A DNA stretch of 42,024 bases from an uncultured Clostridia bacterium (lineage in GTDB: Bacteria; Bacillota; Clostridia; Oscillospirales; Oscillospiraceae): assembly GCA_947165825.1 (NCBI GenBank), contig CAMVBX010000004.1:1-42024 (forward strand), in the 5' to 3' direction. Shown here piece after piece: positions 5,773 through 38,130 of this stretch. Positions within the stretch are counted from its first letter, which is position 1. Each line of letters begins with the position of its first letter. The notes below the pieces were generated by a model that saw nothing but the letters and a program-made list of their open reading frames with translations, searched no databases and was not told the DNA's origin. The translations under genes were made by a program, and so were the position numbers.

Positions 5773-5870
5773 GGAATCCTTAACCGCAGACAGCCCCCCG
5801 ACCCTTGGCTTAACAGTGATAAGGAACTAATCAAACTCACCGTCAGCTGACAGATTCGGGCATATAACGA

Positions 5871-5912
5871 AGAAAAGCCGTTGCTTTCCAAATGGAGAGC
5901 AACGACTTTTCG
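5871..5912. repeat. Left copy of a 42-nt direct repeat forming a hairpin
   Basis: AGAAAAGCCGTTGCTTTCCAAATGGAGAGCAACGACTTTTCG, identical to 6085-6126; arms AAAAGCCGTTGCTTTCC / GGAGAGCAACGACTTTT around AAAT. Confidence 0.95.
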
Positions 5913-6084
5913 CAGACTGTAGACAAACCCGAAAATGGAACGAAAACGGGAAGGAAGATAGCGCGAAAGAAACCCAGGAGGGGTGTCTTTCGCGTTCAAT
6001 CAGAAGTTTTTCGAACAATTTCTACCGTATTTCCTGTTCGAAAAACTTGCTTCAGCGGGGCGACAAGACTTTGTCGACACGCTG
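5913..6084 (+). mobile_element. MITE-like non-coding element copy 1 (E1), 172 bp
   Basis: Ends CAGACTGTAGACAAA (5913-5927) and TTTGTCGACACGCTG (6070-6084) are 12/15 inverted repeats, exactly bounded by the 42-nt direct repeats; interior hairpins 5962-5994 (9-bp arms) and 6004-6048 (14-bp perfect arms). Confidence 0.7.
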
Positions 6085-6126
6085 AGAAAAGCCGTTGCTT
6101 TCCAAATGGAGAGCAACGACTTTTCG
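6085..6126. repeat. Right copy of the 42-nt hairpin direct repeat
   Basis: Identical to 5871-5912. Confidence 0.95.
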
Positions 6127-6210
6127 TTTTTCACCCTGCATATAGGCGGACCATTTGAAGAGTGATATTATTGTATTTTTGAATTCTCTGCAAACAATCT
6201 CTTGGGCTTA

Positions 6211-8536: not shown

Positions 8537-8758
8537 GAGTGTGTCGACAAAGTCGACACGCTTCGACCGGGACCCACTTCGTTGGGCTCCCGGTCGATTT
8601 GGTTTGCACTACGCTCCCCGCACTCGCTGCGCTCGCACAGTACGCTCCGTGAGCGGTATTTTGGCCCAGAAATGAATTCCGGGCCAAAATGGATCTTGAC
8701 TCTATTCGCGCCTACGGGCGCGAACTCTGCGAGGCTTTGGTACTTTGTCTACAGTCTG
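8537..8758 (-). mobile_element. MITE-like non-coding element copy 2 (E2), 222 bp, inverted relative to E1
   Basis: Ends GAGTGTGTCGACAAA (8537-8551) and TTTGTCTACAGTCTG (8744-8758, exact reverse complement of E1's left end); bounded exactly by hairpin repeats; interior hairpins ~8564-8596 and 8658-8690. Confidence 0.7.
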
Positions 8759-38003: not shown

Positions 38004-38031
38004 TCAGGGGACCGCGGATGCGGTCCCCTGA
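38004..38031. terminator. Terminator-like hairpin adjacent to element E3
   Basis: TCAGGGGACCGC-GGAT-GCGGTCCCCTGA, 12-bp perfect stem. Confidence 0.7.
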
Positions 38032-38033
38032 CT

Positions 38034-38130
38034 CAAACTGCAGACAAAGCGGATCAAGCCGCGCAGAGTTCGCGCCCTCAGGCCCGAAATATCGGGAATC
38101 GTTTCCGGGCGGAATTCCTTACCGGCCGGA
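38034..38130 (+). repeat. Degenerate copy (E3) of the E1/E2 element family
   Basis: CAAACTGCAGACAAA end (13/15 to CAGACTGTAGACAAA); 16-nt CGCAGAGTTCGCGCCC shared with the minus strand of E2 at 8716-8731; GAATTC-containing hairpin at a collinear offset (78 vs 79 nt). Confidence 0.6.

Follow-up and report, generated by a model that had tools for sequence, protein, structure and literature searches.

A short, probably IS1182-type element that inserts into terminator-like hairpins and duplicates them in an uncultured Clostridia bacterium

The 42,024-nucleotide stretch of DNA analyzed here (the window; positions 1 to 42,024 of contig CAMVBX010000004.1 in assembly GCA_947165825.1, from an uncultured Clostridia bacterium of the Oscillospiraceae) contains a 172-bp repeated element, designated E1, at positions 5913-6084 of the forward strand. 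Our analysis revealed that E1 belongs to a real and recently active family of miniature inverted-repeat transposable elements (MITEs) of the type of the insertion sequence (IS) family IS1182, whose members duplicate terminator-like hairpins at their insertion sites. E1 itself is very probably an IS1182-type MITE that is moved in trans and that targets and duplicates such hairpins as a whole.

E1 is bounded by two terminal inverted repeats (TIRs), CAGACTGTAGACAAA on the forward strand (5913-5927) and CAGCGTGTCGACAAA on the reverse strand (6070-6084; forward-strand reading TTTGTCGACACGCTG), which match at 12 of 15 positions; the left one recurs unchanged at the ends of IS1182-family elements. 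The element is inserted between two identical copies of a 42-bp palindromic target site duplication, at 5871-5912 (palindrome score 13) and 6085-6126, the right copy being followed by TTTTT. This arrangement of a 172-bp element with 12/15 TIRs between exact 42-nucleotide hairpins, described in the original prediction from the letters of the DNA, was confirmed to the base. RNA folding of positions 5860-6140 recovered both flanking hairpins together with two interior ones (z = -8.7; none of 200 shuffles folded as well). Interior hairpin 1 (GCGCGAAAGAAACCC..GGGGTGTCTTTCGCGT, about 5960-5996, forward strand) is conserved across genera, and interior hairpin 2 (AAGTTTTTCGAACA..TGTTCGAAAAACTT, about 6004-6051, forward strand) displays compensatory changes between genomes. 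The sole open reading frame of at least 80 amino acids lying mainly over E1 is a chance frame of 88 amino acids (5892-6158) that also spans the flanking hairpins, and the predicted pair of interior hairpins and lack of a credible reading frame both hold. A search of E1 against Rfam gave no match up to E = 1. With its small size, lack of a transposase gene, imperfectly inverted ends and only a chance reading frame, E1 has the anatomy of a MITE, and its family further shows numerous near-identical copies, which lie at unrelated sites and are accompanied by target duplications and empty sites.

The genome containing the window (G000; 2.2 Mb in 198 contigs, 72.6% complete) carries 38 E1 copies at 97-100% identity and two at 84-88%, along with some fragments, as identified by BLAST. 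The end motif has 112 exact matches in this genome, compared to a single match for the reversed control, and many of them lie close to contig ends, as is to be expected of a short-read assembly that breaks in repeats. The locus L004, near an end of contig C173, also contains the sequence GTGACTGGAGTTCAGACGTGTGCTCTTCCGATCT, which resembles an Illumina adapter. Among relatives, E1 copies were found at 82-92% identity in two genomes of the same genus (G003 and G005) and mostly at 70-74% in a genome of the same family (G011), with weaker matches in G010, G027 and G036. The plasmid collection yielded only one distant relative, in Vescimonas fastidiosa, and that record has no exact match to the end motif.

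The flanking sequence differs from copy to copy, and every inspected E1 copy has flanks of its own. In G000, 37 copies have both ends, and in 28 of these a palindrome of 21-42 bp (median 28) is duplicated exactly at the element ends, using a duplication score threshold of 12; none of the 1,332 mispaired combinations of left and right flanks reached this threshold, the best score being 6. In the relatives, 11 of 12 copies are flanked by a duplication, each with its own hairpin. Across sites of G000 and the relatives, the two ends of the duplication fall within 2 nucleotides of the palindrome ends (33/37 and 31/37 sites), the centers of duplication and palindrome lie within 1.5 nucleotides of each other (35/37), and the length of the duplication tracks the span of the palindrome (rho 0.70 for the MITE, and 0.76 for IS copies). 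Of the 53 MITE and IS targets, 51 have a best-palindrome score of 8 or more, compared to 12 of 1,060 shuffles. The stem sequences are wholly different between sites, and in 29 of 39 sites one strand has a T-rich tract beside the stem, as in intrinsic terminators. The right flank starts with A in 33 of 37 sites and the left flank ends with T in 31 of 37.

The joined flanks of five insertions were further searched within the genus. At the sites of two of them (L030 and L005), G003 displayed an unbroken alignment across the junction with one hairpin, so that the single-hairpin empty sites sought after the original prediction do exist, and no empty site with two hairpins was encountered. Because the copies have private duplicated hairpins and these empty sites carry only one, the hairpin is the insertion target and not part of the element, and the proposal of a non-autonomous transposable element with a long palindromic target duplication is thereby supported. 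The site of a third insertion (L028) is also occupied in G003, yet with a different duplicated hairpin, suggesting independent insertions into the same terminator. At E1 itself, the hairpin together with approximately 66 bp upstream (window about 5805-5912) recurs as a dispersed sequence, twice in G001 and once in G004. At these three places it has one hairpin and lacks E1, and it may represent the terminus of a different mobile element. The gene upstream of the E1 site is followed by another terminator in G003 and G005.

Seen at E1 alone, two identical hairpins abut the ends, as they would if the hairpins belonged to a longer repeat of about 256 bp. This arrangement was rejected, as the hairpin differs at each copy instead of being the same around all of them, and for the other copies BLAST similarity stops at the boundaries of the 172-bp element or no more than a few bases from them; we regard its probability as close to nil. 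A further possibility is that the repeat is not mobile but serves the host as a regulatory RNA or terminator cassette and is retained for that function. The interior hairpins are indeed conserved across genera, and 8 of their 36 predicted pairs display two-sided changes that keep the pairing, which may reflect function or template switching within palindromes. The latter is also a possible cause of the inverted loops observed between the two hairpin copies of several insertions: in L013, L037, L042 and L059, no mismatch is left once the loop of one copy is flipped, in L060 most of them disappear, and the same inversion was seen by inspection in an IS copy (L091). The L042 flip probably came after the insertion, since G005 has the same insertion (L043) with unflipped loops. 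The loop flips suggest that the covariation could also come from such template switching; furthermore, the 38 copies at 97-100% identity, the exact inverted ends, the target duplications and the empty sites indicate recent transposition, the two empty sites in G003 speak against fixed functional copies, and Rfam holds no match. A non-mobile regulatory cassette is accordingly a highly improbable explanation.

Comparison with known transposases pointed to the IS1182 family as the source of the mobilizing enzyme. A profile search identified the IS1182-family transposase NF033551 in 157 of 401 genomes of the same bacterial family. In several IS1182 elements of this bacterial family, the ends read CAGNCTGTCGANAAA or nearly so, and 24-36-bp palindromic duplications are present; one of them (L077 in G251) has the ends CAGACTGTCGACAAA and CAGACCGTAGACAAA and a perfect 24-bp palindromic duplication. 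When the L077 transposase was used to scan GTDB genomes, 77 loci were obtained, and most complete loci among them end in CAGACTGTAGACAAA, the exact left end of the MITE. The proteins of IS elements with CAGACTGTAGACAAA ends pass NF033551, or carry DDE_Tnp_1_6 and DUF772, with DDE_Tnp_1 also present. Overall, IS1182-family elements of the Oscillospiraceae and Lachnospiraceae have a 15-18-bp end in common with E1, and both the ends of E1 and its target behavior, the duplication of a palindrome, agree with theirs. In the complete genome GAM79 (G424) and in Anaerostipes sp. 992a (G425), where these elements have the 15-16-bp end CAGACTGTAGACAAA, 16 of 20 fetched TIR-bounded spans are flanked by 20-35-bp palindromic duplications with at most one mismatch, and one such span is 10.4 kb long; their presence in these two genomes, one of which is complete, makes an assembly artefact unlikely. 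GAM79 also contains two micro-elements of 50-58 bp (L234 and L236, at 121291-121340 and 226874-226931) that are barely more than two facing ends, and the left hairpin of L234 matches the right hairpin of L235.

Among the 35 IS copies for which both flanks were available, 20 have palindromic duplications, 11 adjoin two different hairpins, and 4 have other arrangements. The copies with two different hairpins (L081, L084, L112, L120, L125, L128, L130, L132, L140, L143 and L150) could have originated by recombination between copies.

The original prediction had suggested a transposase of the IS30 type, in analogy to IS1630, which would target and duplicate inverted repeats. This description of IS1630 is correct, as a title cited in PMC3317919 conveys, and IS1630 is a precedent for the duplication of inverted repeats by an IS30-type element, so the suggested mode of insertion stands. 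The suggested enzyme is not supported: searches of the four main carriers (G000, G003, G005 and G011) detected no IS30 transposase (NF033563), and the ends of E1 match those of IS1182-family elements base for base. Two IS30 transposases matching NF033563 are present in G036. IS1630 of Mycoplasma fermentans, in addition, has 27-bp heterogeneous ends and an IS30-type transposase, unlike E1. An IS30-type mover is, therefore, very unlikely, and judging from the sequence of the ends and the shared target habit, an IS1182-family transposase is the most likely one.

Several observations weigh against assigning E1 to an IS1182-type mover with a hairpin-duplicating habit. Profile and protein searches found no IS1182 transposase in G000, G003 or G011, and no autonomous partner of E1 in the incomplete, fragmented G000 assembly. 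The partial IS1182 copies of G005 have slightly different ends (CAGACTGTCAAAGAA), and beyond the 15-18-bp end the MITE has no similarity to any IS found. Nine of the 37 G000 copies lack a clear matching duplication: they are tandem neighbors, lie between two different hairpins, have a pair that has diverged, or have no hairpin on one side. The search within the genus, finally, revealed no strictly orthologous empty site for E1 itself. An origin of E1 by internal deletion of a known IS was considered and rejected for lack of a shared interior. At the end of contig C23 of G000 (L020), a different end, GGGCGCGTTGCAAAATAGC, adjoins a MITE copy; it resembles sequence next to a partial IS1182 transposase (L072) of G005.

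Taken together with these points, the preferred reading would have the following course. A DDE transposase of the IS1182 family, presumably supplied within this cell, would mobilize the short and gene-less E1 in trans and would act on palindromes, mostly intrinsic-terminator-like hairpins. Both 3′ ends of E1 would be joined to the 5′ foot of the hairpin, one on each strand, so that the stagger would equal the length of the palindrome. Gap repair would then copy the entire hairpin to both sides, producing the target duplication of 21-42 bp and thereby leaving a terminator-like hairpin on each side of the insert. Duplication of a stem-loop corresponds to pathway b of the model proposed for IS1272, which itself replaces the stem-loop (PMC5678879).

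How the transposase would recognize its target is less certain. We give about an even chance to the possibility that it reads the extruded hairpin (a cruciform) with the two 5′ feet as cut sites; the fold of the target would then set the stagger, and the terminator kept on each side may allow a high copy number at little cost to the host. Somewhat less probable, in our estimate, is that the same enzyme recognizes sequence symmetry or terminator composition through a transposase dimer, with no cruciform and with the fold irrelevant; this possibility is not exclusive of IS1182-type hairpin duplication and concerns a single step of it. The preference for A at the start of the right flank and T at the end of the left flank indicates some sequence preference. 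Against recognition by symmetry or composition stand the complete difference of the stems among sites and the dependence of the duplication length on that of the palindrome.

E1 resembles bacterial MITEs in general in being short, non-coding and present in many copies with inverted ends. It has only the ends in common with the IS1182-family elements, which are about 1.5-1.8 kb long and carry a transposase gene. The closest described targeting behavior is that of IS1272/TnSha1, members of the IS1182 family from staphylococci, which target terminator hairpins without primary sequence specificity (PMC4923244; PMC5678879). TnSha1/IS1272 insertions, however, delete part or all of the hairpin and produce no target duplication (PMC4923244), whereas E1 duplicates the whole hairpin; a hairpin replacement of the IS1272 type was rejected for E1, as most copies have a hairpin on both sides. 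A review of prokaryotic MITEs (PMC10969869) names neither IS1182 nor IS30, and its passages on insertion sites contain no whole-hairpin duplication; likewise, an element of this kind is absent from the IS1182 and MITE passages of PMC3281130. The literature searched contained no highly amplified IS1182-type MITE with duplication of a whole hairpin; as it comprised open-licence articles only, this absence is weak evidence of novelty. Each part is known, palindrome targeting from IS1182 and duplication from IS1630, and their combination is apparently new.

The duplicated length also bears on the mode of transposition. Most DDE transposases cut with a fixed stagger. A duplicated length that follows the target palindrome is strong evidence, drawn from natural insertions, for a mode of IS1182-family transposition that duplicates hairpins, in contrast to IS1272, the IS1182 member with a well-described hairpin target, which deletes the hairpin. 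More than 50 mapped insertions with clean ends make structure recognition directly testable. Insertion into terminators may explain how such an element multiplies in gut Clostridia while sparing genes, and a terminator that occurs twice, on either side of a short repeat, can indicate an insertion site.

The window contains a second element with the same type of ends, of 222 bp, at 8537-8758 on the reverse strand, between AAACGCCCCCTTGCGGGG(G)CGTTT hairpins; the hairpins duplicated around it have the sequence AAACGCCCCC. In its two further copies in the same genome (L221 and L222), only the left side has a hairpin. A possible relic of a third element lies at 38006-38048, where a degraded end (CAAACTGCAGACAAA, 38034-38048, forward strand; a weak match with 2 mismatches) adjoins the hairpin TCAGGGGACCGCGGATGCGGTCCCCTGA.
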